Shown here: positions 5,301 to 55,396 of the stretch, piece after piece
Layout: each line of letters opens with the position of its first letter
How positions within the stretch are numbered: the first letter of the stretch is position 1
NCBI GenBank assembly: GCA_022925895.1
Contig: JAKSYS010000203.1
Location: 1 to 64,000 of the forward strand
From: Fragilaria crotonensis
Lineage: Eukaryota; Bacillariophyta; Fragilariophyceae; Fragilariales; Fragilariaceae
Length of the DNA: 64,000 nucleotides
Direction: 5' to 3'
The notes under the pieces: model-generated
Told to the model about the DNA's origin: nothing
Databases searched by the model: none
What the model saw: only the letters and a program-made list of their open reading frames with translations
Translations under genes and position numbers: made by a program

Positions 5301-8300
5301 GACCCTGGTGGCACTGGTGTGCCGCAACGCTGGGGACGTTGTGACTGGGACAATAGCTGGTGAAGGGGTGGACCCAGGAGGCACGGGTGCGCCCGTCAGC
5401 TGAGACGCCGGAGAGGATGTCACAGGGACGGCAGCTGGGAAGGCGTGGACCCAGGAGGCACGGGCGCACCTGTCGTCTGAGACATCGGGGATGCTGTGAC
5501 AGGAACGCCAGAGGAGGGGTGGACCCTGGTGGCACGGGTGCACCTGTCGGCTGAGACGCCGGGGACGTTGTGACTGTGACGGGGACGCTAGCTGGTGAAG
5601 GGGTGGACCCAGGAGGCACGGGTGCGCCCGTAAGCTCAGATGCTGGTGAGGATGTGACGGGGACGCCAGCTGGCGAAGGCGTGGACCCAGGAGGCACGGG
5701 TGCACCTGTCGTCTGAGACGTCGGGGATGCTGTGACAGGAACGCCAGCTGGCGAAGGCGTGGACCCTGGCGGCACGGGCACGCCCGTCGGCTGAGACGCC
5801 GGCGAAGATGTTTCTGGGAGGCCAGCTGGCGAAGGGGTGGTCCCTGGAGGCACGGGTGCACCCGTCGGCTGAGACGCTGGGGAAGATGTGGTGGGCACAC
5901 CAGCTGGCGAAGGGGTGGACCCTGGAGACAAGGATCCGACCGATGGTTGCGACGTTGGGGGCATTGTGGTAGGAACAGGGCTGGCTGGATCTGGACCCGC
6001 CGGATTGATAGGAGTGGGAGACTTAGTGCCCGATGATACATTAAGCTTGATCACGTTGCTATCATCATCATTGCAACTGCACCCCTCAGCAGATTGACCA
6101 TTCACCTCCACCCTATCGACATAATCAGCATCCGCGCACACACCAATCTCAACTGACTCAGATACCGTGAACATTTCACTTGGAAACAACTGCAAGGCAC
6201 CAGCAACAATGCCAGAGAGCATATTGCGAGATTCGCCATCGAACGTGCGGTTCAGCTGCTTGATGTCGACCTTCGATTCTCCGTTATTGACGACCAGGTA
6301 TGTGTATTGAATATCGACAAAGCAATCGTTGTTTCCCTCGCAATTCTTGAACCTCACAAGCTCCAACGATCCAAAAGAATCCAAAAGTTTCAGTCCATCG
6401 CCGCTGCACGTTGTGTCGATCTCAATTCGCTGAGCAGTGTCGCCGCTCTGGGACTCAACAAACGCAAAGAGCTTCGCAGGGAGCGCATCGCTATTGGATA
6501 AAACACAGATCTCGTCACCTGCTGCGAGAGTCTTCTCTACCAAGTTAATGCCACCGGGGTCATCATCGAGTGATACAACCATTCCAGCCACAGTCGGTAG
6601 AACACCCAAATCCTGACACATCAGCAGACCGCCCTTTCCAATTCTGCTCGCATCACACTTCGAAGCAGTGTATCGGAAACACAACTCGGTTGCAGCACAA
6701 CCCTGGCAGGTAAGTTGCGAGACCCCGCTTAAGTCTGCGCAGGTGTTGCTCGATCCTTTTACTTTGCAAGCAACCTCCACACCGAGAGTGCAGCACTGTC
6801 CAGTCGGGGCAGCAGTTGGAGAAACTGCATTTGGTGGAGGCGTGGAGCCTGGAGGCGCTGGAGCGCCAGTTTGCTGAGAGATCGGGGAAAATGTGACGGG
6901 GACGCCAGCTGGAGAAGGCGTGGGCCCTGGCGGCACGGGCACGCCCGTCGGCTGAGACGCCGGGAAAGATGTGTCTGGGAGGCCAGCTGGCGAAGGGGTG
7001 GTCCCTGGAGGCACGGGTGCACCTGTCGGCTGAGACGCTGGGGAAGATGTGACGGGGAGGCCAGCTGGCGAAGAAGTGGTCCCTAGAGGCACGGGTGCAC
7101 CCGTCGGCTGAGACGCTGGGGACGTTGTGGCTGGGACACCAGCTGGTGAAGGGGTGGACCCTGGTGGCACGGGTGCGCCCGTCAGCTGAGACGCCGGAGA
7201 GGATGTGACAGGGACGCCAGCTGGCGAAGGCGTGGACCCTGGAGGCACGGGTGCACCAGTCGTCGGAGGTAGTGGGGACGTTGTGATGGGGACACCAGCT
7301 GGTGAAAGGGTGGACCCTGGTGGCACTGGTGCGCCCGTCGGCTGCAACGCTGGGGACGTTGTGACTGGGACAATAGCTGGTGAAGGGGTGGACCCAGGAG
7401 GCACGGGTGCGCCCGTCAGCTGAGACGCCGGAGAGGATGTCACAGGGACGGCAGCTGGGGAAGGCGTGGACCCAGGAGGCACGGGCGCACCTGTCGTCTG
7501 AGACATCGGGGATGCTGTGACAGGAACGCCAGCTGGAGGAGGGGTGGACCCTGGTGGCACGGGTGCACCTGTCGGCTGAGACGCCGGGGACGTTGTGACT
7601 GTGACGGGGACGCTAGCTGGTGAAGGGGTGGACCCAGGAGGCACGGGTGCGCCCGTAAGCTCAGATGCTGGTGAGGATGTGACGGGGACGCCAGCTGGCG
7701 AAGGCGTGGACCCAGGAGGCACGGGTGCACCTGTCGTCTGAGACGTCGGGGATGCTGTGACAGGAACGCCAGCTGGCGAAGGCGTGGACCCTGGCGGCAC
7801 GGGCACGCCCGTCGGCTGAGACGCCGGCGAAGATGTTTCTGGGAGGCCAGCTGGCGAAGGGGTGGTCCCTGGAGGCACGGGTGCACCCGTCGGCTGAGAC
7901 GCTGGGGAAGATGTGGTGGGCACACCAGCTGGCGAAGGGGTGGACCCTGGAGACAAGGATCCGACCGATGGTTGCGACGTTGGGGGCATTGTGGTAGGAA
8001 CAGGGCTGGCTGGATCTGGACCCGCCGGATTGATAGGAGTGGGAGACTTAGTGCCCGATGATACATTAAGCTTGATCTCGTTGCTATCATCATCATTGCA
8101 ACTGCACCCCTCAGCAGATTGACCATTCACCTCCACCCTATCGACATAATCAGCATCCGCGCACACACCAATCTCAAGGGACTCAGATACCGTGAACATG
8201 TCACTTGGAAACAACTGCAAGGCACCAGCAACCATTCCACCGATCAAATTGCGAGATTCGCCGTCGAACGTGCGGTTCAGCTGCTTGATGTCGACCTTCG

Positions 8301-11300
8301 ATTCTCCGTTATTGACGACCAGGTATGTGTATTGAATATCGACAAAGCAATCGTTGTTTCCCTTGCAATTCTTGAACCTCACAAGTTCCAACGATCCAAA
8401 AGAATCCAAAAGTTTCAGTCCATCGCCGCTGCACGTTGTGTCGATCTCAATTCGCTGAGCAGTGTCGCCGCTCTGGGACTCAACAAACGCAAAGAGCTTC
8501 GCAGGGAGCGCATCGCTATTGGATAAAACACAGATCTCGTCACCTGCTGCGAGAGTCTTCTCTACCAAGTTAATGCCACCGGGGTCATCATCGAGTGATA
8601 CAACCATTCCAGCCACAGTCGGTAGAACACCCAAATCCTGACATATCAGCAGACCGCCCTTTCCAATTCTGCTCGCATCACACTTCGAAGCAGTGTATCG
8701 GAAACACAACTCGGTTGCAGCACAACCCTGGCAGGTAAGTTGCGAGACCCCGCTTAAGTCTGCGCAGGTGTTGCTCGATCCTTTTACTTTGCAAGCAACC
8801 TCCACACCGAGAGTGCAGCACTGTCCAGTCGGGGCAGCAGTTGGAGAAACTGCATTTGGTGGAGGAGTTGCCCCTGGAGACGCTGGTGCGCCCGTTTGCT
8901 GAGAGATCGGGGAAAATGTGACGGGGACGCCAGTTGGTGGAGGCGTGGACCCTTGCGGAACGGGTGCGCCCGTCGGCTGTGACGCCGGGGATGTTGTGAT
9001 AGGGACGCTAGCTGGTGAAGAGGTGGACCCAGGAGGCACGGGTGCGCCCGTCGGCTGAGACGCCGGGGAAGATGTGACGGGGAGGCCAGCTGGCGAAGAA
9101 GTGGTCCCTAGAGGCACGGGTGCGCCCGTCGTCTGAGACGCTGGAGAGGATGTGACAGGTATGCCGTCGGGCGAAGGCGTGGAACCAGTAGGCACGGGTG
9201 CCCCTGTCGTCGGAGGTATTGGTGACGTTGTGACTGGGACGCCAGCTGGGGAAGGGGTGGACCCTGGAGGCACGGGTGCACCTGTCGTCTGAGACATCGG
9301 GGAAGAGGTGGTAGGGAGGCCAGCTGGTTGAGTGGTTGACCCTGGTGGGACGGGTGCTCCTGTCTGCTGGGATGTGGTGGGTCGTGTATCGGGAATGCCA
9401 GTTTGCGGAGTCGAGCCCGTCGCCTGCGACGTCGGGGAGCTCGAAACTGGAACGGTAGTTGGTGGAGGTGTTATCTCTGGAGACTTGGACCCGCCTGTCG
9501 GCTGAGACGACGGCGATTTTGTGACGGGAGCCTCGCTAGCTGGATTTGGACCGGTTGATGTGTTAGGTGTGGTCGCAGGTGTGGGATTCGGTGTGGCAGG
9601 CCCAGGCGTCGGGAAGGGCGTTACGCCAGTGCCAGGGATTGTTGGTCCGGGTGTTGGTGCTGTGTCAGGAACGCCAGTCGGAGCAGGTGTAGATCCCGGA
9701 GGTGTGGTAGCACCAATCGGCTCAGACGTTGGGGGTATTCTCACCGGACCGTCACTTCGCTGTGGCTGAGGTGTTGATCCTGGAGAGACGGGTGTGCTTG
9801 TCGGCGGTCTTGTGAAGGGATTGGGGCTTGCTGGATCTGGAACTGTTTGTGTGATAGGTGGTGGCGTAGAGGTAGGGGTCTGGTCAGTGCTAGGAATCGT
9901 AGGTCCAGAAGTTGGCTCTGTGAAGGTAGGATTCGGAGTTGGCTGCTGGGTTGGCCTTGGCGTCGGTGGAGGAGTCGTAAGGGTAGGCGTAAATTCATTC
10001 GGAGATGGCGTTGGGGCTGTAGTCCGAATGGGATTCTCCGTAGCCAGCGTAGGGAAAGGCGTCGGCCCCGGAATCGGAGGAGGAGTCAAAAGCGCAGGTG
10101 CAGATGTAAAAACGTTCGGAGCGGGCGTTGGGGGTGGAACTGTAGGCAGAACGGGATTCGCCGTAGATGACGTGGGAAAAGGTGTTGACAGCGGGCTTGG
10201 GCCAGGTGTCGGCCCAGGAGTCGGCAGAGGGGTTGGCCGAGGTGTCGGAAGTGGGGTGGGCCCAGGTGTCGGAAGTGGAGTCGGAAGTGGGGTGGGTCCA
10301 GGTGTCGGATTTGGAGTCGGCAGTGGGGTTGGCCCAGGTGTCGGATTTGGAGTCGGCAGTGGGGTTGGCCCAGGTGTCGGATTTGGTGTCGGCAGTGGGG
10401 TTGGCCCAGGAGTCGGTATTGGGGTTGGCCCAGGTGTCGGATTTGGAGTCGGCAGTGGGGTTGGCCCAGGTGTAGGATTTGGGGTTGGCAGTGGGGTGGG
10501 TCCAGGTGTCGGATTTGGAGTCGGCAGTGGGGTTGGCCCAGGTGTCGGGTCTGGAGTCGGCAGCGGGGTTGGCCCAGGTGTCGGGTTTGGAGTCGGCAGT
10601 GGGGTTGGCCCAGGAGTCGGGTTTGGAGTCGGCAGTGGGGTTGGCCCAGGAGTCGGGTTTGGAGTCGGCCGTGGGGTTGGCCCAGGTGTCGGGTCTGGAG
10701 TCGGTAGTGGGGTTGGCCCAGGAGTCGGATTTGGAGTCGGCTGTGGGGTTGGCCCTGGAGTCGGATTTGGAGTCGGCAGTGGGGTTGGCCCAGGAGTCGG
10801 ATTTGGAGTCGGCAGTGGGGTTGGCCCAGGAGTCGGATTTGGAGTCGGCAGTGGGGTTGGCCCAGGTGTCGGATTTGGAGTCGGCAGTGGGGTTGGCGGA
10901 CGGGTTCCTTCAAATACTCCATTAGTCGGAGCCGGTGTTGCAGGCACAGGCGTAGGGAAAGGTGTCGCTACAACAGGCTTAGAAGTCGGTTCGTCCTCGT
11001 CGCTTGGGTTTTGAAATGGGAAAACAAACGGCGAGTTAGTTCGAGCAGGGTTTGGGACAATGGACGGTGGCAATGTTGGACTCAGAGTATCTCCAACCCC
11101 TGGGTCTGGGACAAGGGGGACAGGGGGCCGTGGCGTCGGCGGAATGGTTGATCCGGTAGGAGTTGGCATCGAGTCAGGCGGAGCAGTAGGAGAACAACCA
11201 GGTGGCCGTGGCATCCCAGGCATACTTGGCATACAGTCCAAAGTTCCTTGGCAACGTTGATGCGAAGCCGGAAGGATAACAATACGACACGAATCAAAAA

Positions 11301-12699
11301 CGGTAAGACCTTTCCCTCCTTCATAGTCATTCTCTCCTTCGTAACCCTTCTTTCCTCCATAACCCTTCTTTCCTCCATATCCCTTCTTTCCTCCATATCC
11401 CTGCCTTCCACTGCCGTAGTCCTTATCTTTAGTTCTTCCGTATCCCTTCTTCCCACGATAGTCATTATTTCCTCCATATCCCTTCTTTCCTCCAGAGTCA
11501 TTACTTCCCCCATATCCCTCATTTACTTCATAGCCCTGCGTTCCGTCACAGTCCTCGTCTCCTTCATAACCCTTCTTTCCGCCATAGCCCTTCTTTCCGC
11601 CATAGCCCTTCTTTCCGCCATAGCCCTTCTTTCCGCCATCACCCTTCTTTCCTCCATAATAGTCGAAACCTCCGCCGCCTTTCTTTCCCGCCCCTCCACT
11701 TCCTCCTCCAGCTTCCACATACGACGGCAAGCTACATTGCATATCCCAAAGGGGACAGTCAATAGGTTCGCCAGGACAACGGTATTGAACATTTTCGCAA
11801 GACGAGCAGCTTTGAGAAAGGATGTATTCTCCGTTTACTTCCAACAAATTGCTAGCATCCAGATGTCCCTGCAAGGCCAGATTCCTGCTGCTTGGGAACA
11901 TGATGTCCACCAAGTTGGGGTCTCCTAATCGACGCCCATTGGTATACTTCCTCTTGGAGGATTTTCGAGACTTCCTCTTGGAGGATTTTCGAGACGATGC
12001 CTTGTTCCCTCCGCCCGATCTCCCATAAATATCTTCACCAGGGTACTCACAACGACATGGAACTTTCTGGCGACCACAACCACCGTTACGATTCTGACGC
12101 GATTGACGAGGCTCGGTACTGCGGAGTGGAGCATCGTTACTATCACGACGGCTGCGACTCGTAGCTTCCGCCTTGTCCCCGTCGAAGGCTCTGGCCAAAT
12201 CTCGCATGACACGACTACTCGAGGTTTTCTCGGTTTCGTGTCGTGCGTCCCGGTTTTCTTCATGACCAACTTGACGGCCTTGAAATAATTGAATGTTTTG
12301 AAGTAAAGTCTTGGTGTTGGCACGTCTAACTTGAGTGCCACCATCTGGGTTACGACTCATAAGGTATTCAGATATCTCGGCACGCTGCGACTGAGCACCC
12401 TTCGACACAAGAAGCATTCGGTGAACATGCTCTACCTCTGCATCCCCGATAGGTCCAACTTCGTTCTCAAGCATTTCTCTCACATTGTCGACGGTCATAG
12501 TAGGGATAACATCGATGAAATCATCGCTTTCGTCGAAGGCCTCTGTTCCTTCCAGAGTTTCCAATGAGGAGGAGTTCTCTCTTTCTGGAGGATGCTGAAA
12601 TTCACGTCTGAACGATGTCGCGGTCGTCGTGGCATCTGCAAGGTATGCAAGAATTACCAAAAAGCACAGGATCTTGGAGCTCATCATGATTGGCTTCAT
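2378..12699 (-). CDS. Giant secreted Pro/Thr-, Lys- and Gly-Tyr-rich repeat protein (cell-wall or adhesive candidate), frame-broken
   Basis: The start at 12699 gives a signal peptide (residues 1-24, core [14 protein letters not shown]). A Lys/Ser-rich stretch follows (233-251, [14 protein letters not shown]), then a Cys-rich segment (298-323), GGKKGY repeats (about 333-465), a second Cys patch (471-502) and [12 protein letters not shown]-type repeats (about 515-930). After these come many 26-residue units of the [19 protein letters not shown] type. They are interrupted by three copies of a Cys-rich module with the core [16 protein letters not shown] (about 8826-8040, 6801-6010 and 4555-3780). 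The C-terminus (about 3390-2530) holds two related modules, each ending in a Cys-x-Tyr-x-n-Cys motif. Three frame changes (near 5510, 5437 and 5320) break the gene. The duplicate block 2,025 bp upstream lacks them, and adding back the missing 13 nt gives one 3,444-codon frame. The lysine clusters and Pro-rich repeats resemble silaffin, cingulin or pleuralin composition. Silica or adhesive function is inference; I recognise no named family. Confidence 0.8.
3600..9340 (-). repeat. 78-bp coding minisatellite (26-residue [10 protein letters not shown]...PAGVPVT units)
   Basis: Three blocks of imperfect 78-bp units code for the Pro-rich linkers of the giant secreted protein. The blocks lie around 8.85-9.4 kb, 6.85-8.0 kb and 4.56-5.95 kb, with a short one near 3.65-3.75 kb. 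Units differ mainly at the residues after VPVT and before TGAPV. The pattern implies repeated unequal exchange within the gene. Confidence 0.9.
5105..8905 (-). repeat. Tandem segmental duplication, 2,025-bp offset
   Basis: The segment at about 5,105-6,880 repeats at about 7,130-8,905 with near-identical sequence. Example: 5536 aligns to 7561 and 6001 to 8026, both at an offset of 2,025 bp (675 codons). Each copy carries one Cys-rich module plus its Pro-rich linker. The third module (about 3,780-4,555) is more diverged, so the 2,025-bp duplication is the youngest event. The lower-coordinate copy carries three indels that the other copy lacks. Confidence 0.9.
10196..10910 (-). repeat. 36-bp coding minisatellite ([12 protein letters not shown])
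   Basis: About 20 copies of a 36-bp unit encode a 12-residue Thr-Pro repeat in the N-terminal third of the giant secreted protein. The period is exactly two 18-bp half units, so all six frames stay open. This explains the long apparent open frames on the opposite strand. Confidence 0.95.
11318..11700 (-). repeat. 18-bp coding repeat (GGKKGY)
   Basis: Tandem 18-bp units encode Gly-Gly-Lys-Lys-Gly-Tyr, with some units altered to acidic or Asn/Asp versions. Paired lysines at regular spacing beside tyrosines recall polycationic diatom wall proteins; this likeness is by composition only. Confidence 0.9.
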
Positions 12700-37350: not shown

Positions 37351-38399
37351 GGCAGCGACGTGGATCTTTGGACTTGCGTATGCCGATGCTAACAAAATGC
37401 TGGTGTGCGCCTTGACGTCCCACACATTGCAACCGATGCGAGTTCTATAGCGTAAAAGTAGTAGAACTATAGGAATCATCGTCCTCCATTGAAGGCTTGA
37501 GGCTCCTGGGATCATAGTGGAACACAACGCGAACACAATGTCTACGTACAAGGTACGAGTACTGCGTATTGCACTGTGTACGTCACCAAGAATCATACAT
37601 ACAACCCATACATGATACTGTGGCAAACTACATGTAGTGACTGTGACAGTGGCAAGACGTTTCGGTTGAGGGTTGGGTTTACAGTTTACAGTTTGTCCAA
37701 GCTCCCGTCTGTCTTTCATCCATACAAATTCAGAACTACAGTATTGGTTATATATTATATACTACTAGTTATCCTACTATATTATAAATTAATTGTGTGC
37801 GTGTGTGCGTGCGTGCGTCCGTCTGTTACGGAGTATGACCACTCTGGGGTACTGGATCAAATGAATACTGTCTCATACTCGGAGTATGATATATGTCATA
37901 CATGCATACTGGAGTACTCCGTAAGCGATGTCGGTAAGATTTGCATATACGTAGTTGCGTCAGTGCGTGCGTCTGTTACGGAGTATGACCACTCTGGGGT
38001 ACTGCACTACTTGCGTATAGTACTGAACTGTACAAACAGTACACACAACCGTGCACAACCCATACCGTACACGTATTCCAAAAGTCCGACCAATTGGGAG
38101 GTACCCACTAGTATACTATATATTGATTATTGATAGGTACAGTACAAATGTGCTACAGTACATGCAACTCGTGTCCAATGAACTAGACCAGTACAAGTAC
38201 CAGGTACTTGTACCGGTGTAGGTTGACAAGGAAGTCCCACGCGCCATCAATCTCCACATCTCCACCATCGCAGGCAGGGAATGGGTGTGTGCTGGGGTGC
38301 GCTGGGGACTGGTTGATTTGCAGCTGTCAATTGTTCGCCATTAAGCAAGGGTATCATTCGCACCACGTTGATATCAGAAAGCAAAAAGCGCTGCTCGCA
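37351..38399. other. Intergenic region with a 37-bp direct repeat
   Basis: A sequence of about 37 bp beginning gtctgttacggagtatgacc occurs near 37,822 and again near 37,970, about 150 bp apart, in the same orientation. The rest is GTAC-rich. The frame of the next gene is open for 64 codons upstream of its first ATG, so a 5' exon with a targeting sequence is possible here. Confidence 0.5.
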
Positions 38400-41237
38400 A
38401 TGGATCTGGATTTTACAGAATCGAACAATGTTGGCTTTGATGGGAAGCAATGGGAAGTTCACAAGTTTGGAGGAACATCTGTGCAAAATGCGCAGTGTTA
38501 TCTGAGTGCCGCTGCCATCGTGGAAGAACAAATCGGCATTACCAATAAGAATCCAATGCCCACAAGCACCTTAAACTTGGCGATAGTCGTGTCGGCCATG
38601 GGTGGCAAACCCAAGACGACTGATCTGCTCCTCTCCACGGTCGAAGCGGCTGCGGTTCGCGATTCTGACCAAGTAGATGCCGCGATCGCGACGATTACCG
38701 CCAAGCACGTGACATGCCTGGAACAACTTTTTTCGGACGAGACGACTCAGGCTCGCCTAAAGCAGCTCATTCTTAAGGATCTGGAGGACATTCGAGACAT
38801 TCTCAAGACTGTGGCACTTATGAAGTGGCAAGCATCTCGCATTTCGGAGTTGGTGTCCGGCTATGGCGAGGTTTGGAGTGCTCAGATCTTGGCTGCCCTT
38901 CTGCAACTTCGATCGGATGAGCGTGGTACAGAAGGCCAACCCTACTTCGCTTACCTCGATGCCAGACGAGTTATAACTATTGACGAGGAAGCGATCAAAG
39001 ACGGAGCAGTTTGTTGGGATATCAGTGCAGCGAAGCTAAAGGAAGTATATGAGACCGAGACGTTTCCAGCAGGGAGAACTTTGAATTTTGTTATTACAGG
39101 CTATGTTGCCTCCAACACCCATGGAGTTGCAACCACACTTCAACGCGATGGATCTGATTACAGTGCTTCAATTATGGGAAAGCTTTTGCAATCTCGTAAT
39201 GTTACAATCTGGACCGATGTTGACGGCGTCCTCTCAGCCGACCCTCGCCGTGTGCCCAACGCTTTTGTAATTCCAGAAGTTTCCTATAATGAAGCCATGG
39301 AATTGGCGTACTTCGGCGCTAAAGTCATTCACCCCAAAACAATGCAACCAGCCATCACAGCGAACCCGCCGATCCCCATCTACATTCGTAACACCTTCAA
39401 CCCGTCTTTTCGAGGAACTCGTATCTACACATCCAGCACGACACACACCGACCGCGATCGCAGTGTATGCGGATTTAGTAGCATTGAGAACATGGCATTG
39501 ATCAATGTGGAAGGTTCAGGTCTGGTGGGCGTGCCAGGTGTTGCCAAAAGACTCTTTGGCACACTTGAGACTGTTGGAGTGAACGTTGTGCTTATTTCGC
39601 AAGCCTCCTCTGAGCATAGCATCACCTTCGCAACTGTCGAAAGTCAAGTACTCGTAGCCAAGGAAGCCATTGAAGAGGAATTTCACAAGGAGTTGAAGCA
39701 AGGCAGAATCTCACAAATTGAAGTGCAGGCGCCGTGCGCTATCATTGCAGCGGTTGGAGATGGCATGAAATTAGTCGCCGGAGTGTCCGGTCGTTTCTTT
39801 TCTGCCCTCGGAGACGCAAAGATCAACATCCTCGCCATTTCGCAGGGCTGTTCGGAACGAAACATTAGTGCCGTCGTCTTCACTCGAGAATCCACTCGTG
39901 CGCTCCGTGCTGTCCATGCTGCGTTTCGCCTTTCTCACACGACGGTTCGTGTCGGTGTTATCGGCATGGACGACGTGGGAGATTCTCTCTTGAAGCTTTT
40001 GCAGACACAGCGCGCCAAGTTGCGAGAGAAGTTCGAGGTCGACTTGCAGGTTTGTGCTGTCCTTGCAGATGGGTTCAGCTCAGATTTGGTGTGCTTGAAG
40101 CAAGACGAAGCTGGGTGCGCTGATTCCATCACCTCAGCAGCTTACACCTTGGTGACTGGTGAATTAGCAACGGGATCCAAGGTTGCTTTTCACAATGATG
40201 CAGAATTCGCAAAGCGGGTGTCGGGAGGAATAAGTGCCGTCAAGGACGTTTTGATTCTGGAAGACTGCGCTCACCATGTCATTTTCGACTGCACGGGTGA
40301 CAAGGAAGTCGCTTCAAAGCATGCTGAATGGTTGACGGCAGGTGTTAATGTTGCGACAGCGAACAACTGGGGCCTCGCCGGTCCGAAAGAACAGCGCGAT
40401 GCCATCACTGCAGCTGAAACAGCCAACGGTAAGCTCTCCGCCAAGTATTTGCGGGAAGTCACAGTTGGAGGAGCCCTTCCAGTCATAAACACCGTGAGGA
40501 GTCTTCTGAACTCAGGCGATAGGATTCGCAGAATCGACGGAATCATCTCGGTGTCCATGTCATACATTCTGTTCCGCATCTCTCCACCACCCCAAGCCGA
40601 CCGAAACAGTCAATTCGATGAACACATCAGCAACGGGGCCTTCACGGAAGAATCAGCTTATAACTCGGGCGAGGCATGCTCCTTTTCTCAAGCAATTAAA
40701 GAAGCTGTGGCCTTAGGCCTCATGGAAGACGATCCTGCGAAGGATCTTAATAACGAATACAGCGCCAGGTGCTTGATGATTTTGGCCAAAGAGCTTGGAC
40801 TTGATCACAACACTTCCACCGAAGCCATTCAAGCTGCTTGTGAAAAGTTGGTCGAAGGGCCCGTCGACTATACCAACATTTCAGAGGAAGTGGACAAATT
40901 GGTACAGGAGAAGGTTAATGCAGCGCACGAAAAGGGCTGCGTGCTACGTCAGATTGCAAGCGTGGACGTCGCTCAAGAGCTGATCGAAATCAAATTGATG
41001 GAAGCTCCCAACAATCACATTTTCGCAGTCACTCCACCTAGCTGCGAGTGCGTGCGCTTCTTTACACAGAGGCATCTACGATATCCTTTGATCATCCAAG
41101 GACCGTCCGCTGGGGCAGATTCCACTGCTAGTGCTCTGCTCGCTGAGTTCTTGAGTCACATGCGCAGCAAGGTGGGTGTGCGCACAGGAGCCCTCTCCAG
41201 GCCCAACTCTGTCAGCCAACTTAAGACTCTAATCTAA
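38400..41237 (+). CDS. Aspartate kinase fused to a degenerate homoserine dehydrogenase domain
   Basis: From the first ATG the protein has 945 aa. Residues 20-330 are aspartate kinase, with KFGGTSV (22-28), SGYGEVWSAQ, TLQRDGSDYSASIMGKLL and TDVDGVLSADPR; two ACT domains follow (about 350-510). Kinase motifs match plant-type bifunctional AK-HSDH. The C-terminal HSDH half keeps the fold (VGGALPVINTV, GIISVSMSYIL) but has lost key residues. The NAD loop reads GMDDVG for GxGxxG. TANNWG replaces the usual T(A/P)NKK lysine motif. EDDPAKDLNNEYSARC replaces EPDPRDDLxGxDxARK, so the catalytic Asp and Lys are gone. The first step of the Asp-family amino acid pathway is thus likely active, while the second domain is probably structural or regulatory. 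No plastid signal is visible; an upstream exon may be missing. Confidence 0.9.
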   Translation: MDLDFTESNNVGFDGKQWEVHKFGGTSVQNAQCYLSAAAIVEEQIGITNKNPMPTSTLNLAIVVSAMGGKPKTTDLLLSTVEAAAVRDSDQVDAAIATITAKHVTCLEQLFSDETTQARLKQLILKDLEDIRDILKTVALMKWQASRISELVSGYGEVWSAQILAALLQLRSDERGTEGQPYFAYLDARRVITIDEEAIKDGAVCWDISAAKLKEVYETETFPAGRTLNFVITGYVASNTHGVATTLQRDGSDYSASIMGKLLQSRNVTIWTDVDGVLSADPRRVPNAFVIPEVSYNEAMELAYFGAKVIHPKTMQPAITANPPIPIYIRNTFNPSFRGTRIYTSSTTHTDRDRSVCGFSSIENMALINVEGSGLVGVPGVAKRLFGTLETVGVNVVLISQASSEHSITFATVESQVLVAKEAIEEEFHKELKQGRISQIEVQAPCAIIAAVGDGMKLVAGVSGRFFSALGDAKINILAISQGCSERNISAVVFTRESTRALRAVHAAFRLSHTTVRVGVIGMDDVGDSLLKLLQTQRAKLREKFEVDLQVCAVLADGFSSDLVCLKQDEAGCADSITSAAYTLVTGELATGSKVAFHNDAEFAKRVSGGISAVKDVLILEDCAHHVIFDCTGDKEVASKHAEWLTAGVNVATANNWGLAGPKEQRDAITAAETANGKLSAKYLREVTVGGALPVINTVRSLLNSGDRIRRIDGIISVSMSYILFRISPPPQADRNSQFDEHISNGAFTEESAYNSGEACSFSQAIKEAVALGLMEDDPAKDLNNEYSARCLMILAKELGLDHNTSTEAIQAACEKLVEGPVDYTNISEEVDKLVQEKVNAAHEKGCVLRQIASVDVAQELIEIKLMEAPNNHIFAVTPPSCECVRFFTQRHLRYPLIIQGPSAGADSTASALLAEFLSHMRSKVGVRTGALSRPNSVSQLKTLI

Positions 41238-45398: not shown

Positions 45399-48300
45399 AT
45401 GAAAGGCCCTCAAGGAATACTCGCAGAAGCTATTGCGGTCGCGTTGGCTGACTTTTTCGTCATCGACCAGGAGGCGATGGAAACAAACTTGCTTGACAAT
45501 GCTGGAATTGTGCTTCACAACACGAAACTCAAACCTCAAGAAGTGCACCTTTCTCCTAGCATGAGCGCGCGAATTGAAGGCGTTGTCCAAAGCGTGGCAT
45601 TTCAATGGCACTGGGGTCAAGACTCTGAGGAGAAGGGAGGCAGCCATTGGGTCAAAGATGTCAAATTGACCATTGCTGGGCTTAATTTTACTGTAGAACT
45701 CTCGGATAGTACCACTTCGCCCGATCTGGAAGCGTCGACTGAAAATAACCCAAAACCAGAGCCGCTTCAGGAAGAAGTTGAAGCGACGGGATTCATGGCG
45801 TACGTGCAAGACCAAGTTCAGCGAATAATCGATACATTGGAATTGACTGTCACCGATTTGGAAATAAAAATACAGCTTCCCTCTGAAGAAGCACTTCTGA
45901 TTGGTGGGACTGGCTTTAATCTTAAGTCGCTTGGAGTGATTCAGGGCGAACCCTTGAGGCAAGAACTTGAATTTGCCACACTATACTCAAGTGTTGTGCA
46001 AGTCGACGGTTCAACTTTCCCTCTTTTGGAACCTGTATCATACAGGGCACACTGCATTCGTTTGTTCGGAAAGCGCTTTTTGAGTGGGATTGAAAGGGGA
46101 TTGAAGGTCGTAGGCGAATCCACCGATGAGGGCATCATTATCAACGTAGGTGCGGAACAGATCCAATTTCTCAATGAACTGGTAGGTTTGTTGCTATCAA
46201 TAAATCCTCCGGAAAATGAAGGAAGCTCAAAAGCTGGCAACGCTATGGTTGCCTCGAAAGTGGAATCAAAAGAAATTGTTGGTAGTGGCGAGCAGAGCTC
46301 ACTCTTTGAGCTTCCCCTGTCAGCGATATCACTAGTGTTTCCAAACGACACCAAGCTTTCACTCTCAGGCCTGGTTGCCAAATATCAGATGGATGGCAGT
46401 ATCATGAAAATTGAAGGTCACGAGGGAATCTTAGTAAGTGACTTTCCCGTCCTCAAGCTTGGTGCAACGTCATTGTGGTGTCTCGACATGGTCGCCTCTG
46501 AGTTCAACTTATGGAATCCAGATCACGACGAGAATGGCCACGATACAACGGTTGCTTTTTTTCACGTGCGAAACGATGAACTCCAATCAGTCAAAAACGG
46601 GCTCGACGAAGTGTTGTCAATTTTCAATTCTCTGGAAGATGGTGCTGTTTTAGCCCTTGCAAACGACGACAAAGAGCCACTACCAGAACCACCAGGAGCC
46701 CCACAATGGATCCTTCAGCTTCAAGGTCGAATTGGACTTTTGTGGGAAGGCGATGGCGACGCTATTGACGCCGAATTCTTTGTTCGGGACGTTGTTGCCG
46801 TTTCGGAGCCCGCGTCAGTGTTGATTACATCTGTCGACCAGCTCTATATTCCTGGAATACTCAAATTGAGCAAGCCGATTGAAAACACGCGGATTATCTT
46901 TGACGGCGCAGTCTTTGATATTCAGATCGGAGACATCGTCGCGACCCTTGAAGAAGCTGTATATGCACCACCGGTTGAAAAGCAGCCTTCGATCAACGAA
47001 TCGGAAAGCTTCGGAACTTGCGACTCGTCCGTATCAATGGCAGACTCATCGCACACATCGACTGCCCCTCCAAGCCCTTTTGTCATGCCATTTGGTGTTG
47101 TGGCATCACTCCACACAATAACTCTCTACAAACTCGACGGCCAAACAACGCACCTTTCGGTGATTGACACACGTCTGGCGCTTGGCCCACACCGGTCGCT
47201 ATCACAACTGAGAGATCAAGACTTCGGAGGAATCCGACTTGCCTTGAAAATGGAAAGAATCGTCCTTGACCTGATCCTTGTTGAAAAGCCATGCATTTCC
47301 GCTGTCGTGTACCTCGAGGATTTAGATACCATCCCCACTTCTCCTTGCAAGCAAAAAGTGTCGCGGTTTCTGCTGGCTACACGGCTCTCGACTGGAAGCG
47401 ATTGAGAGACTTTCGTGGTCCAAACACCAAGAAGAGAAAGCAAAAAGTCAAAAAACAGGCGCGCAACGAACCAAACAAGGCTATTAAGCTGCCATTCGCG
47501 CACGTCAAGCCCTTGAAGGTCAGCGTCGTGGTATCTAGCGATCTCGTCGGAGTCAAGGATTCCACTCTGCACTTCAACGCCTTCCAAGGAAAACGCAACA
47601 CCACTTCTGACGACCTCATTGGTTTCTACGCTTCTCGACTGATATCAAGGGTTCCCAATATCATCGTCAATGCCGAACTCTTTGGAACTGGTGTGGCTGA
47701 TACTGTTGCCGGGTCCTATGGTGGTGCTACCGGTGCAGTTGCAATGAGTCACCTTGGGGTTGCAGCTGGTCCGCTGGGAGGAATTCTCGGGATTGCAGCC
47801 TTCGATGGAGTGCGAAACACAATCAAGGCAGGAAAGGAGAGTCGCGGAGCTGATGCTAATGACAAGTTTCAGTTGCTCGACCTCGCTCGAGGGCTGAAGT
47901 ATGCAGCTGTCAGAGCAACGCGTGGTGGAGCGGCGAAACGTGGTAAAACCGACGACCAAAGAGGAGATCCTATTGACTGGGCTGTTGGAGCAACGACCGA
48001 CGTTGCGAAATACACATCGAAAAACAAGGCAAGGCTGGGGTCTGCAGGGGCTGGAACTGTCGGATTTATGTATGGCATGATGTTTGGCGGACCCATCGGG
48101 GCAGTCGTCGGAGCAGTCACGGCAACTGTAGTAGCAGGCAAGGCCATAGACAAGGTGGATACCCTCGCGAGGCGTTCCAGGCAATTAAAGCAACAGAGGA
48201 GAAAAGAAAAATTAGCAATTGAGGCGCTTGAAGTCAATGTTGCCGTTCCCCAGGCTGACGTCGACCTAGCTGCCCAAGGAGTGGAGTATACTCTCACCGA

Positions 48301-48754
48301 CCTACAGGACAGGGTGACGGCAGAGACAGAGGCAGCGAATTCGTTTGAGGTCAATCTTAGAGACAATCCGATTCCCGTTAGAGGCGTGTTATTGAAGCAA
48401 CGAGAATTTTGTTTCTGGGATTGGCGAGCTCACTATTTCGTGCTTGACGAAGGTGAGCTCCAGTATTATCCGATATCCCTCACGCCACCACCGGATGCGA
48501 TTCCAGAGGAAAGTGCCACGGAACATGAGGGAATATTATACATCGACACCAAAGAACCTCGGAAAGTGTTAAATGTCTCCGGACTTTCCGTCGAAGTTGA
48601 CGACGGTCTGAGCAAACCAAACGAGCAATTGTTTGTGTTCACTGTTTCCTATACGGGAAGACGCGACGTACTGTGGGTTCTCGCAGCCGCTTCGCAGGAA
48701 ACTAGAAATCGCTGGGTGACGCAGATCCAGCTGCATGTTGAAAACGAACTATAG
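45399..48754 (+). CDS. Chorein-like lipid-transfer candidate with C-terminal PH domain (one frameshift)
   Basis: Two long frames (45399-47405 and 47291-48754) join into one 1,118-aa protein if one A is added to the A5 run at 47353-47357; no GT-AG intron gives the right phase. The N-terminus (LAEAIAVALADFFVIDQEAM, NTKLKP) resembles the chorein_N start of VPS13/ATG2 bridge proteins, followed by beta-rich repeats. Residues about 740-935 contain a Gly/Ala-rich hydrophobic region (GAVAMSHLGVAAGPLGGILG and GTVGFMYGMMFGGPIGAVVG) like a glycine zipper. The C-terminus (about 990-1118) is a PH domain: VLLKQREFCFWDWRAHYFVL to TRNRWVTQIQ. This suggests membrane-contact lipid transfer. The frameshift is probably a sequencing error. 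Confidence 0.75.
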
Positions 48755-48800
48755 TTTTAAGTAGTAAAGAGATTTCTTGACTTCGGAATAGAGGCGGCAA

Positions 48801-49624
48801 CTATTTCTTCACGTCCTTTTCTACAAACTCCACGTCAATCACCTCATTCTTCTTGAAATGATTCTTTCCTAGTCCAGAGCTTTTTGATGAAGACGCAAAG
48901 ACGTTGCTATTCCTGAGTCCGTCAGCTGACTTATACAAGGGAATGTCCAAAACGCGTCCACCAACGTTGAGGTAGAGGCTTTCAATGACATCATCTGAAG
49001 CCACCATTGTCGCAACGCCAAGCTGGCGCGTACCTTGAACATGAAACGAAGCCTGGACTTGCGATGAACTTTTCCCGTTGATGCTCACGCTGGAAGACGA
49101 TTGCGAAAACGGTGGTTGCATTACGAGCGGTTCTCCTAGAGCCGACGTGGCTTCAGGATCCGATAGAATGTAGTCATGCGCAGTCTCAAGCAGGTCCTGG
49201 GTCTGCTGCTGCTGCTCCTGTATGACTGACGCAAGACCTGAAAAATAGGAGCCACAAGAGAGCCAAGCATGCGAACTGCCAAGGGTGCATCCTTGAGCAC
49301 GGCGGTGATGCTGCTCTCGACGTCTTTCTTCAGTTCCTTGCGGGTAATTTCAGCCTTTCGTTCTTCTTCTGTTTGTGTCCAGCTTTTCGGTAGAATTGAT
49401 TTGACTACCTTCTTAAGACCACCGAAGAAGCCTTCGTCACCTCGAGTCGACGAAAAGAGACGAGTCTGGGGTTGGAATGAAACTGGTTTGGCTTGTACCA
49501 GCGGTTGGAGGGGTGAAAACGCGTAACCATTTGGCAGAGTTGAGCCCAAGGCTGCTGCAGCAGTCAGGAGCATAAGTTTCTTTGGACGGTGAGATATCAT
49601 CGTCAATGATCGTGCTCTTATCAT
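48801..49624 (-). CDS. Plastid-targeted COA1-like protein (one frameshift)
   Basis: The N-terminus has a signal core and YAFSPLQ (34-40), the A|F plastid motif, then an Arg/Ser transit region. Two frames (49624-49136 and 49121-48801, the second open further upstream) meet at a T5 run (49241-49245). Adding one T gives 274 aa reading LVAPIF|SGLASVIQEQQQQ. The rest has LGEPLVMQPPFSQSSSSVSI and NGKSSSQVQASFHVQGTRQL, a pattern like the COA1/TIM21-type small beta domain. Its job in plastids is unknown. The stop lies 46 bp from that of the convergent chorein-like gene. A very short intron is a less likely explanation of the frame change. Confidence 0.65.
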
Positions 49625-50148
49625 TTGTGTGGGTTCTCAACACTTTGTGTGCTCCACAACCTCTTCGTTCATATCACAGTGCAGAAATCTGGAGGGCTCC
49701 GGAGTTCGCATCTTCTCTTGTTGATGAATTGACACAACGAGACAACTGACGCCAACATCATGTGACTGCGACAATCCGAAGTACTGTACGGTAAGTACGA
49801 GTACCTGGTTCGTGCGCACGGTAGACGGTACCAGTACTCCAGTACTGGGCAAAAAACAAAACCCTCCAGTGTCCAGTGTATATGTAGGACTTGACGTTTT
49901 TCTTACCCGTAGCGGTATGTTTGTATGCAGGTATTCTGCATATTCGGTTACTCCTTCTACTACGAGTACTAGACCTAGTAGCAAGTGGCAACGGTAGCCA
50001 AACGGCCGAACAAGCCACGCCTGAGCACGAGCAGTATATAATTGTGTGTAACAACTGATGCCAGTATCGGAGGTTGATCATTGTATGAAATCTTAAAAGT
50101 TATATTTATATATCAAACTTTCCGCCTGCCAAATAACAACCCATAATA
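49625..50148. other. Intergenic region upstream of the tRNA gene
   Basis: GTAC-rich sequence (49,780-49,990), then an AT-rich stretch leading to the permuted tRNA. No protein-coding frame is supported. Confidence 0.5.
50101..50138 (+). promoter_or_regulatory. TATA-like box and CAA start region of the tRNA gene
   Basis: tatatttatata (50101-50112) lies about 37 bp upstream of the tRNA 3' half, and caac at 50137-50140 lies about 10 bp upstream. A TATA-like box plus CAA near the transcript start is the arrangement described upstream of plant and some algal Pol III tRNA genes. Position and composition fit; function is inferred. Confidence 0.4.
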
Positions 50149-50231
50149 TTCGAATGGTCACGTGTTCGACTCACGTTTGGTGCTAAGATAGCTTGCACTA
50201 ATAGCTCAGTGGTAGAGCGTTCGATTGCAGA
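50149..50231 (+). tRNA. Circularly permuted tRNA-Cys(GCA): 3' half precedes 5' half
   Basis: The 3' half comes first: anticodon-stem strand TCGAA (50150-50154), variable TGGTC, T arm ACGTG-TTCGACT-CACGT (50160-50176), acceptor strand TTGGTGC (50177-50183) and U73 (50184). Ten bases follow (50185-50194). The 5' half is next: acceptor GCACTAA (50195-50201), TA, D arm GCTC-AGTGGTA-GAGC (50204-50218), G26, anticodon stem TTCGA (50220-50224) and loop TTGCAG(A) with anticodon GCA (50227-50229). Placed in usual order, all four stems pair fully (one G-U in the acceptor). U73 and the 5-nt variable loop are those of tRNA-Cys. The B box (gttcgactc) thus lies upstream of the A box (tagctcagtgg). Position 38 can come from either half. 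Permuted tRNA genes are known from red and green algae; maturation would need end ligation and splicing. Confidence 0.85.
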
Positions 50232-50240
50232 GGATGTTTC

Positions 50241-50245
50241 TTTTT
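50241..50245 (+). terminator. Pol III T-run terminator
   Basis: TTTTT begins 10 nt after the end of the 5' half of the permuted tRNA, preceded by TTTC. This is where a Pol III transcript of the permuted gene would end. Confidence 0.55.
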
Positions 50246-50269: not shown

Positions 50270-51360
50270 AATTGGCCGTGAGATAGTTTGCACTAATAGC
50301 TCAGTGGTAGAGCGTTCGATTCAAGACGGTGTCTCTTCTTCTCCACTTTCACAGGTGTGAAGTTGGTGGTATAGGGTTCGATTGTAGAGGATATTTCTTT
50401 TTCACTCTTAAGAGCATTCGAGTGCAGAGGATGTTTCTTTTTCACTTTTGCAGGTGTGAAGTTGGCGGTGAGGTAGCCTGCACTAAGAGCATGTCTTATC
50501 ATGGGGTACAAAAATTCCATGGATGTACCTGGGGGTAGATCGATGTACCCTTCCAAAAACTTCACAAAATATGCAATTCTTATCGTGTGGTCTTGTACAC
50601 GATTTATTTTCCATATCCATACATTAATATATCCTATGTCGCTATGTCTTGTCTTGCGTGTACATATTGTAATCTACATACTGAATATTTTATATGCGTG
50701 TAATGACAATTCGAGTGATCCTTGTTGTTGTTGACGAAAGCCACGAAGGCAATGACGTCTGGAATGACGACACGGACTCGATGGCTGAGTTCGTGGCGAG
50801 CGTAGAAATGCTGGGAAGGCCTCTTCCTTGTGCGGGAGTTCGGGGCAAGTGTCGAAACAATGCAATGGCAGCATCTTGGCAAGTTGTTGGTGGAGTTGTT
50901 GCTGTTGGAGGCGCTGCCATGAGCCATTGTTGAGCAATTCTCACATGTTTTATCGTGTATGACAACACAAGGAACAGGTACGGAAATGTGGTGAAACGTG
51001 ACAAAAGGTCACTGCACATCACCACTGGAGTCTTGCAACAGTAGTGTACCTAGGTAGATGAGGGGGGGTCAGATTTTCAAAATCTGACCCAGGTACGTCA
51101 GGGGGGTACATCATCTGACCCCCCCCAATTCGATGTACCCCCCTTCATAAGAATTGCTTTTTTCGACGAAAATCGAAAATTCGGCGGGATGTACCCGATG
51201 ATAAGACATGCTCTAATAGCTTAGTGGTAGAGCGTTCGATTGCAGAGGGTGCTTATTCTCCACTTTTACAGGTGTGAAGTTGGTGGTGAGTTAGCTTGCA
51301 CTTAAAGCTCAGTGTAGAGCGTTCGATTGCAGTCAGTGTTGATTTTAGATTTTTGCAGGT
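50270..51360 (+). repeat. Decayed tandem copies of the permuted tRNA-Cys unit
   Basis: Copies of the 5' half recur at about 50290-50323, 50411-50433 (partial), 50478-50486 continued at 51214-51250, and 51294-51335. All keep tagct(c/t)ag-tgg-tagagc-like sequence. Before each copy lies ttggnngtgag(a/g)tag(c/t)ttgcac, which corresponds to the acceptor end and 10-nt linker of the intact gene. The T arm is missing in every copy, and the anticodon is spoiled in some. A common spacer contains ctttttcacttttgcaggtg. The intact gene therefore sits at the left end of a decayed array whose units share the permuted order. Confidence 0.75.
50487..51213. mobile_element. 727-bp MITE with TAA target duplication, inserted in a tRNA-derived repeat
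   Basis: The inverted ends read GAGCATGTCTTATCAT and its complement, with GGGTAC just inside. TAA flanks both sides (50484-50486, 51214-51216). Removing the element and one TAA restores the tRNA-unit sequence tgcactaatagct, so this is a clean insertion. Inside is a near-perfect hairpin (51066-51077 with 51079-51090, gggtcagatttt). The open frames inside (for example 50690-50933) have no known relatives. Confidence 0.85.
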
Positions 51361-53490: not shown

Positions 53491-55396
53491 TTAGTGCGCT
53501 TTGAATTGAGCTTCTGTTACCCCAGCGCCCATGGCAGCTGTAGAGGAGACGCCACCGCTAGCTACATTGACCATGTTGTCAACAAGTTCAGCGCCTGACC
53601 ACCTCTGATGCGTCAAAAGCTCAACTTGCTGATCGCGTTCTCGACGCTGGATCGATTGGACATAGGCCAACATGCCTCGATCTCCGAAAGATCTTGCGAG
53701 TTCAGTTACGATAAGACCATTTGAATGAAATCCGGCAAGTGTGATAAACTGCCATGTATAGCCAAGACGACCTAGGTCGTCGTTAAAGGACGCCAACTCA
53801 TTGTCCGACATACCTGACGCATCCCAATTGAAGCTTGGGCTGAGATTGTAGGCCAGCATCTGATGGGGGAACATAGCCTATAATTGACAGAAGGTTAGAA
53901 GCTGCACGAAAAAAACAGACAACGATTGACAGAGACGTAGCACCTACCATAACACCTTCAGAGAACTTTCTGGCATCCGGAATGCCTGGAACGGCGGTCT
54001 CCATCCAAATGAGATCGGAGTATGGCGCATAGGCTCTGGCTCTTTGGATGCAGTATTCAATACCAGGCTTGATTTGGTAGTATCCCTCACGTACACGGCA
54101 AAGTTCCCAATCAAAGTAAACGGAATTTCTCTCACCAAAGATGGAATCGGCGACACGTCGGGCTTTGGCATTGCTGAGAGTATCGGGGTCAGTAGCCATC
54201 CACTGATTGATCATGCGACGCTTGTCGTAGCTGCTGACACTTAGACTTTCGATCTTGGCAATAACTGCCTCGCCAAAGGTCATGAGCTTGGCTCTGATTG
54301 CCCAGTTCTGTGTCACGCTATCAACATTACGCCCACCGGCACTGTCAGTGGCATCTTGGAGGGCTTCAACTCCTGGAACCGTGACTCCCAAGATGAATGG
54401 ATGATCCCGTCCGTCGATGTTGGAATCCAACAGTGTAGCAGCCTCTGCATCAGTTCGAGCTACAATTATTGTTCCAGTACCAAGAATATCACAGGCAAGG
54501 CGAGCAGCGACCAACCTATCAACATGTTCCTGCGTCGACACTAATACCTTGCCTGATGACTTGTTTGAGAAAATGAAGACTCCGAGATGCGGCAGGCGAG
54601 TGAGCACACGTACGTACCTCCCATATGCCCGCACTTCTTAGTTCCTGGCTTCTGATCTTCAAAGTGGATTCCAGCAGCGCCTGCCTCAACAAAGAGCTTC
54701 ACAAGCTTCATGACAGCGCTCAATCCACCGTGCCCGGTGTCGCCATCTGCCACCACTGGAGTCAAATAGTCCACTTTGGGACCAGGATCAACACCAGCCA
54801 ACAAAGCCTTGGTGCGCTCGTTGTGTTGACGACGATCGTGGTGCAGCTGAGCCCGCACCAACTGGTCAACCTTGTTTGGTACAGTGTTCATTGGATAGTC
54901 CGCAAAATCTGGCCCAGGTTCATTCGTGGTGGAGGCGGTCGATGAGCATTGCCAACCAGATACATAGATCGACGACAAATGAGGAGCCATCTGTACAACC
55001 TGAACAGTGTCGAGCGCACCGAAGGTATGGCTGTAGCCCCCGACTCTCTGCAAGTTTCGAAGGAGGTTGTACAACTTATCGGCGGCCTGGGAGGCGTACA
55101 AGGTCTTGGGAGAACGGAACAGCCCCCCACGCGCTTCTGGGGAAGGACGAAGGCAGGCGACATCCTTGGCTGGAAGAGAGAGAACGAGTTAGCGCAAACC
55201 GGGAACAGACGAGAACTGTTCGCGTTTTATGCAACGCACCTGTAAATGGGCGTTTGGTGTGTCCCCATCGATGGGTGTTTGACCACCACTGTTCAATATC
55301 AGCGGTCTCCTGAATCATACGATCGTACTCCTCTTGGGTAGAGATGTCAGTCTTTGGAGGAAGACTGCGGAGGCCACGACTGATCTTGGCTCTCAT
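53491..55396 (-). CDS. Isocitrate lyase (glyoxylate cycle)
   Basis: Four exons (55396-55240, 55169-54618, 54552-53948, 53877-53491) with introns of 70, 65 and 70 bp encode 566 aa. All junctions restore family sequence: [25 protein letters not shown] and SEGVM|AMFPHQM. The enzyme splits isocitrate to glyoxylate and succinate. The catalytic loop is KKCGHMGG (Cys232), with [14 protein letters not shown] before it and [10 protein letters not shown] and [12 protein letters not shown] later. The length is normal for eukaryotic isocitrate lyase. The C-terminus (EAQFKAH) is not a typical peroxisomal PTS1. The N-terminus [15 protein letters not shown] is basic and might be a weak mitochondrial signal. 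Expected to run with malate synthase during lipid use. Confidence 0.95.

Follow-up and report, generated by a model that had tools for sequence, protein, structure and literature searches.

The locus described here raises the question of whether a tRNA-Cys gene whose 3′ half precedes its 5′ half is a working gene or the remains of one. The window (the whole stretch of 64,000 nucleotides of Fragilaria crotonensis DNA that was analysed) is the start of contig C118 in an assembly of 62.1 Mb and 881 contigs. A first-pass annotation had proposed a circularly permuted tRNA-Cys gene; the order of the halves, the GCA anticodon, a TATA-like box, a T5 run and the finding of no ordinary copy all fit this proposal. 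The order, the fold of the joined halves, an array of further 5′ halves, the position of the terminator, the lack of any detected ordinary copy and the presence of endonuclease domains in the genome are established here. The locus is quite likely a working circularly permuted type II (37/38) nuclear tRNA-Cys(GCA) gene in a diatom. It probably supplies most or all of the cytosolic tRNA-Cys.

On the + strand, the 3′ half is followed by a linker of 10 nt and then by the 5′ half (Table 1). This order and the length of the linker had been annotated as such and stand; the 5′ half ends at 50230 (G37) and not, as annotated, at 50231. The ranges 50149-50184 and 50195-50231 sum to 73 nt and give an anticodon loop of 8 nt; position 38 is either T50149 or A50231, not both. 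A 37/38 cut on the leader side makes position 38 a U. A38 is usual in tRNA-Cys. The halves joined in normal order are called tRNA-Cys(gca), 72 bases, by ARAGORN; the call is unchanged whether position 38 is U (leader side) or A (trailer side).

The stems of the joined tRNA comprise 7 (acceptor), 4 (D), 5 (anticodon) and 5 (T) pairs, i.e. 21 pairs, one of them G-U. The joined tRNA-Cys is complete and includes U8, U33, G18G19 and UUC at 54-56. The pairing of four stems in normal order, the anticodon GCA, U73 and the variable loop of 5 nt, all of which the annotation had listed, are seen in the joined halves.

Table 1. Coordinates of the permuted tRNA-Cys gene and of the array that follows it (positions in the window; c1 to c6, copies of the 5′ half).
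Feature	Position	Strand	Remarks
TATA-like A+T-rich box, putative Pol III promoter element	50101..50114	+	35-48 nt upstream of the 3′ half
Putative leader of the permuted pre-tRNA	50115..50148	+	Assigned from position alone
3′ half of tRNA-Cys, positions 38-73	50149..50184	+	U73 = 50184
Linker between the acceptor strands, 10 nt, without a T4 run	50185..50194	+	AAGATAGCTT
5′ half of tRNA-Cys (c1), positions 1-37, anticodon GCA	50195..50230	+	
Trailer	50231..50240	+	AGG right after G37
T5 run, putative Pol III terminator	50241..50245	+	10 nt past the 5′ half
5′-half copy c2	50290..50325	+	2/36 differ from c1, both in the anticodon
Partial 5′-half copy c3	50366..50387	+	3/22 differ from c1
Partial 5′-half copy c4	50411..50427	+	2/17 differ from c1
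5′-half copy c5, first part	50480..50486	+	Cut at TAA by the insert
Transposon-like insert, 727 bp, inside c5	50487..51213	.	Ends inverted, agreeing at 23 of the first 24 nt; flanked by TAA on each side
5′-half copy c5, second part	51217..51245	+	Whole c5: 1/36 differs from c1
5′-half copy c6	51298..51332	+	2/35 differ from c1, one base missing

Detectors of ordinary tRNA genes find nothing in the window: ARAGORN reports 0 tRNA genes, and no Rfam match reaches its gathering threshold. A model of tRNAs in ordinary order (R1), built from three known tRNA-Cys and the joined window sequence, scores linear stretches of the window no higher than 29.1 bits, against 65.4 bits on the plastid tRNA-Cys and 43.5 bits on the mitochondrial one. 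R1 is not specific for Cys (tRNA-Phe, top among the other ordinary tRNAs, reaches 69.6 bits). No ordinary tRNA-Cys was thus found within the window by any of the three. Another model (R2) was built with the window sequence, and its 68.1 bits are not counted as evidence.

For the permuted covariance model, nine ordinary tRNAs from this genome were rotated at 37/38, the window sequence being left out. The model gives 61.0 bits on 50149-50230 (E 3.2e-18 for 64 kb); its three remaining matches in the window have 21.3, 18.1 and 7.6 bits. On 23 ordinary tRNA loci, which include its training tRNAs in unrotated form, the maximum is 32.5 bits. The first-pass annotation had considered chance pairing of the stems very unlikely and had held that a low score with a rotated model would count against the gene. 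The score is high with a model that owes nothing to the window, and the next best match lies far below it.

The best sub-threshold Rfam match over the permuted gene is YrlA (RF02553; 50130-50247, 33.2 bits, gathering score 69, E 5.9e-5 in a 1.7-kb stretch). YrlA is an RNA of bacteria that associates with Ro60 and contains a tRNA-like domain in permuted order. On the strength of this match, the locus could encode a Y RNA-like or other non-coding RNA of the YrlA type with such a domain, and not a tRNA. This is very improbable: the score is below half of the gathering score, the features needed by a decoding tRNA (GCA anticodon, U33, U73) are present, and the match is explained by the order T arm, acceptor, D arm, which is common to both. 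The Fragilaria gene differs from YrlA in that its anticodon loop is decodable and its acceptor stem complete. The YrlA model picks up the permuted tRNA gene at low score and may be a crude detector of such genes in eukaryotes. An overlapping match to SCARNA7 (9.9 bits, E 9.3) was rejected as chance.

The neighbours of the locus look nuclear. They encode an aspartokinase-homoserine dehydrogenase (38208-41234, +), a PH-domain protein (47291-48751, +) and an isocitrate lyase (53801-54634, -). Elsewhere in the window (2378-12699), two minus-strand ORFs (2509 and 991 aa) match DUF7467 and contain long tandem repeats (78 and 36 bp); their products are perhaps cell-surface or cell-wall proteins. Contig C881 carries plastid genes, including that of the Rubisco large subunit (490 aa), whose best matches, over all or nearly all of its length, are the solved chains 7yk5, 5n9z, 5mz2, 5oya and 6ftl, which come from diatoms. 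Contig C880 (107979 bp) is taken as mitochondrial. Its tRNA matches recur about 81.6-81.7 kb apart, so that it probably runs past the start of a circle. It also carries six tRNA matches of equal score, 1.03-1.36 kb apart (69508-75687).

To look for an ordinary nuclear tRNA-Cys, three patterns of the 5′ half ending in a GCA anticodon loop (D-loop of 7, 8 or 9 nt) were searched genome-wide. Matches without mismatch are at 50202 and 51217, both in the array. With 0-1 mismatch, the first pattern gives 12 places (2 in the window, 5 inspected, 1 plastid, 4 judged by their letters), the second 22 (12 inspected as stretches, 10 judged by their letters) and the third 6 (all judged by their letters). 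The tRNAs found at one mismatch are the plastid tRNA-Cys or have other anticodons; the remaining places that were fetched are not tRNAs. At two mismatches, the first pattern gives 161 places in all (those up to contig C406 being listed) and its reversed control 205; this level is therefore noise. A further tRNA-Cys pattern gives 30 places, against 26 in its control (6 inspected for it). A pattern of the 3′ part, spanning anticodon to B box, matches 36 places, of which the 11 inspected yield the mitochondrial and the plastid tRNA-Cys and no other tRNA. Overall, the scanned stretches contain the mitochondrial and plastid tRNA-Cys, one tRNA-Met (a locus chosen from the Rfam candidates) and two tRNA-Tyr; the others contain no tRNAs.

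The reach of the patterns was gauged on ordinary tRNAs. As a control of the D arm, 13 of 15 ordinary tRNA types (class II tRNA-Ser not included) fit one of the first two patterns without mismatch; the other two, the tRNAs for Thr and Ile, have by eye a longer D-loop, as in the third pattern. A tRNA with a strongly divergent D arm would escape these patterns. A genome scan with the Rfam tRNA model, in which 63 of 2258 candidates were scored, is not an inventory. A DNA search with an Arabidopsis tRNA-Cys gives 0 matches and misses even the window, which makes it too insensitive to count. By these patterns, no ordinary nuclear tRNA-Cys was detected in an 881-contig assembly that may have gaps, many places being judged by their letters. 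The count of ordinary tRNA-Cys genes, which the annotation had put forward as a check, thus turned up none in the nuclear contigs within the limits of the patterns and the assembly.

When the joined tRNA is searched as DNA against the genome, this locus alone is returned, with four 5′ halves and one 3′ half. In one piece, the joined sequence is found at 0 places in the assembly. These results bear on a possible assembly artefact, in which the halves of an ordinary tRNA gene would have been joined in the wrong order. The order is known from one contig only. Such an error is nevertheless exceedingly improbable: the joined ordinary tRNA is nowhere in the genome, and the linker resembles the stretch before the following 5′ half of the array. 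The sequence is also no dispersed repeat derived from a tRNA (SINE), as a DNA search gave 4 matches, all at this locus on C118.

The array, which is absent from the first-pass annotation, is a decayed tandem array that runs from 50195 to about 51368 and comprises six copies of the 5′ half (c1 and five more). Copies c3 and c4 are partial and c5 is split by the 727-bp insert, which we take to resemble a PIF/Harbinger-type MITE, from its 3-bp target site. Copy c2 has a Cys body with the anticodon letters CAA (a Leu anticodon), and no 3′ half lies downstream of it within the window. The spacers after c1, c2, c4 and c5 end like the acceptor strand of the permuted gene; except for that of c2, they also resemble the linker (compare TTGGTGGTGAGTTAGCTT after c5 with TTGGTGCTAAGATAGCTT). 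No second 3′ half was found in the window, the next best match having 21/34 letters. All the 5′ halves lie downstream of the sole intact 3′ half; hence, permuted order is the only one in which this locus can yield a tRNA.

Compared with c1, the five copies that lack a 3′ partner show changes at 10/146 sites, none of them common to two copies. At this rate, the probability that about 60 structure-bearing sites (an estimate) would all remain unchanged is about 0.014, in a calculation where the 3′ half has no second copy for comparison; when only the 36 sites of the 5′ half are counted, it is 0.08. Identities of the 5′ halves and of the spacers are, by copy pair, 34/36 versus 33/44, 35/36 versus 40/52 and 33/36 versus 39/42. 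Selection on the extra 5′ halves was considered and dropped, the halves surpassing the spacers in two of the three copy pairs only.

The permuted gene probably arose by decay of tandem intron-bearing tRNA-Cys genes. In the review that tabulates permuted tRNA genes (PMC3978253), one of the origins proposed is a tandem duplication after which the outer exons are lost, and the array is the intermediate of duplication then loss proposed there. It retains the steps of tandem duplication and outer-exon loss, which makes the origin of permuted genes testable. Tandem duplication of tRNA genes is also seen elsewhere in the genome: two tRNA-Trp(CCA) genes lie 73 nt apart (C256:47736-48254), and a like pair is found on C560.

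The same array could also mean that the locus is the dead edge of decayed tRNA-Cys genes, the first unit having lost its 5′ half and the next having kept its own. The permuted look would then be incidental, and cytosolic tRNA-Cys would come from an ordinary gene missing from the assembly or missed by the searches. Decayed units are indeed present, a recent edge would also retain complementary halves, and the assembly is a draft of 881 contigs in which the flank 48800-50140 occurs once. This explanation is nonetheless unlikely. The array is old (10/146 sites changed, two truncated copies, the 727-bp insert), yet the permuted halves are intact and fully paired; a terminator sits after the 5′ half; and the pattern searches gave no ordinary nuclear tRNA-Cys. 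A working gene is more likely than a relic, because its halves are intact whereas the copies are decayed and because no ordinary gene was found.

The signals expected of a transcribed permuted gene surround the two halves. The sequence TATATTTA, 48 nt upstream of the 3′ half, has 7/8 matches to the consensus used, which is weak evidence in an A+T-rich stretch; a TATA-like box before the 3′ half had been noted by the annotation. The A+T peak above the 3′ half is at -60 to -31, and that of 24 ordinary tRNA genes at -50 to -21. In these 24 genes, single TATA matches are weak and scattered, with no sharp box. The T5 run follows the 5′ half at a distance of 10 nt and the 3′ half at 56 nt. The first run of T4 or more is 0-15 nt past the end of the gene in 24/24 ordinary tRNA genes (some near-identical; one with a T4 inside), so that the spacing of the T5 terminator annotated after the 5′ half is that of ordinary genes. 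No T4 run was found between 50115 and 50230, linker included. This placement of the T5 run is what a transcript running from the 3′ half to the 5′ half needs.

Both tRNA-Tyr genes seen have short introns that start with AGG after G37. AGG also follows the 5′ half in the permuted gene (as the start of its trailer) and in c3, c4 and c5; c2 has ACG and c6 TCA. As the trailer starts like the tRNA-Tyr introns, it may derive from the 5′ end of a former intron. PF01974 (tRNA intron endonuclease) has two matches above cut-off in the genome, which therefore encodes an enzyme of the splicing endonuclease family.

Folding of the flanks at the junction, with the cloverleaf held fixed, gave values as low in 452 of 1000 shuffles. 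A significant leader-trailer helix was thus rejected, the pairing being no better than in shuffles, and no clear bulge-helix-bulge motif was found in the folding of the flanks against shuffles. When transcripts are folded freely, mean probabilities are 0.83-0.99 for the acceptor, T and anticodon stems (five transcripts from 50125 or later); in the transcript from 50120, the anticodon stem has 0.47. The D stem has 0.07-0.12 in all transcripts and is mostly displaced.

In other algae, permuted genes are described as transcribed by Pol III, the transcript being cut and ligated at 37/38 into a circle, freed of its linker by RNase P and tRNase Z, and completed with CCA (PMC3978253). Transcription, circularisation, linker removal and charging would proceed at the Fragilaria locus by analogy with these algae. 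RNA polymerase III would start below the TATA-like box and transcribe the leader, the two halves (3′ half first) with the linker between them, and the trailer, ending at the T5 run. The resulting pre-tRNA would form a cloverleaf with its acceptor stem closed by the linker and its anticodon loop open. The tRNA splicing endonuclease would cut off the leader and the trailer, and a tRNA ligase would join G37 to position 38, giving a circle. RNase P and tRNase Z would then excise the linker, and CCA would be added to the end of the mature tRNA-Cys.

A more far-reaching reading is given a slight preference. The only cytosolic tRNA-Cys gene of this diatom would be permuted and caught in mid-birth, in an array that would have lost all its 3′ halves but the first. 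All cytosolic Cys decoding would pass through a circular pre-tRNA, and the extra 5′ halves may partner the 3′ half by read-through. A sole permuted gene for an essential tRNA would, if true, impose dependence on the processing of circular pre-tRNAs.

Permuted tRNA genes are reported from red algae, green algae, nucleomorphs of green origin and one archaeon (PMC3978253, PMC4494063); 34 are tabulated in the review (PMC3978253), and a later report concerns the green alga Auxenochlorella (PMC12633428). No report from a diatom or other stramenopile was found in titles and abstract openings of a mostly non-subscription literature, nor in passages of PMC12633428, PMC4090602, PMC8450103, PMC13353863 and PMC4929541. 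The permuted gene is thus in a lineage for which no earlier report was found. A diatom case would put permuted tRNA genes in the nucleus of a lineage outside the red and green algae, the nucleomorphs and the archaeon. In known permuted tRNA genes, the intervening sequence is 1-74 bp and the halves are on the same strand; at the Fragilaria locus, it is 10 nt and they are also on the same strand.

With the red alga Cyanidioschyzon merolae, the locus shares a TATA-like sequence at most 50 bp upstream, a T stretch after the 5′ half and none in the linker; the review places such a TATA-like sequence within 50 bp of the 3′ half in most C. merolae cases (PMC3978253). C. merolae differs in having 11 permuted genes with several junction positions, none of them for tRNA-Cys (PMC3978253).

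The closest likeness is to green algae. Type II permuted tRNA-Cys(GCA) genes are tabulated for Ostreococcus lucimarinus, O. tauri and Micromonas pusilla, with the same amino acid, anticodon and 37/38 junction as in Fragilaria (PMC3978253). Their linkers are of 26, 38 and 12 bp, respectively, against 10 in Fragilaria. The hBH junction motif that the review describes in green algae (PMC3978253) is not clearly seen at the Fragilaria locus, and the permuted tRNA-Cys gene is here in the nuclear genome of a diatom. In O. lucimarinus, the review mentions one additional 5′ half downstream of the permuted tRNA-Cys gene (PMC3978253); Fragilaria has five (two partial, one split by an insert). The Fragilaria locus is the anatomy of O. 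lucimarinus in fuller form.
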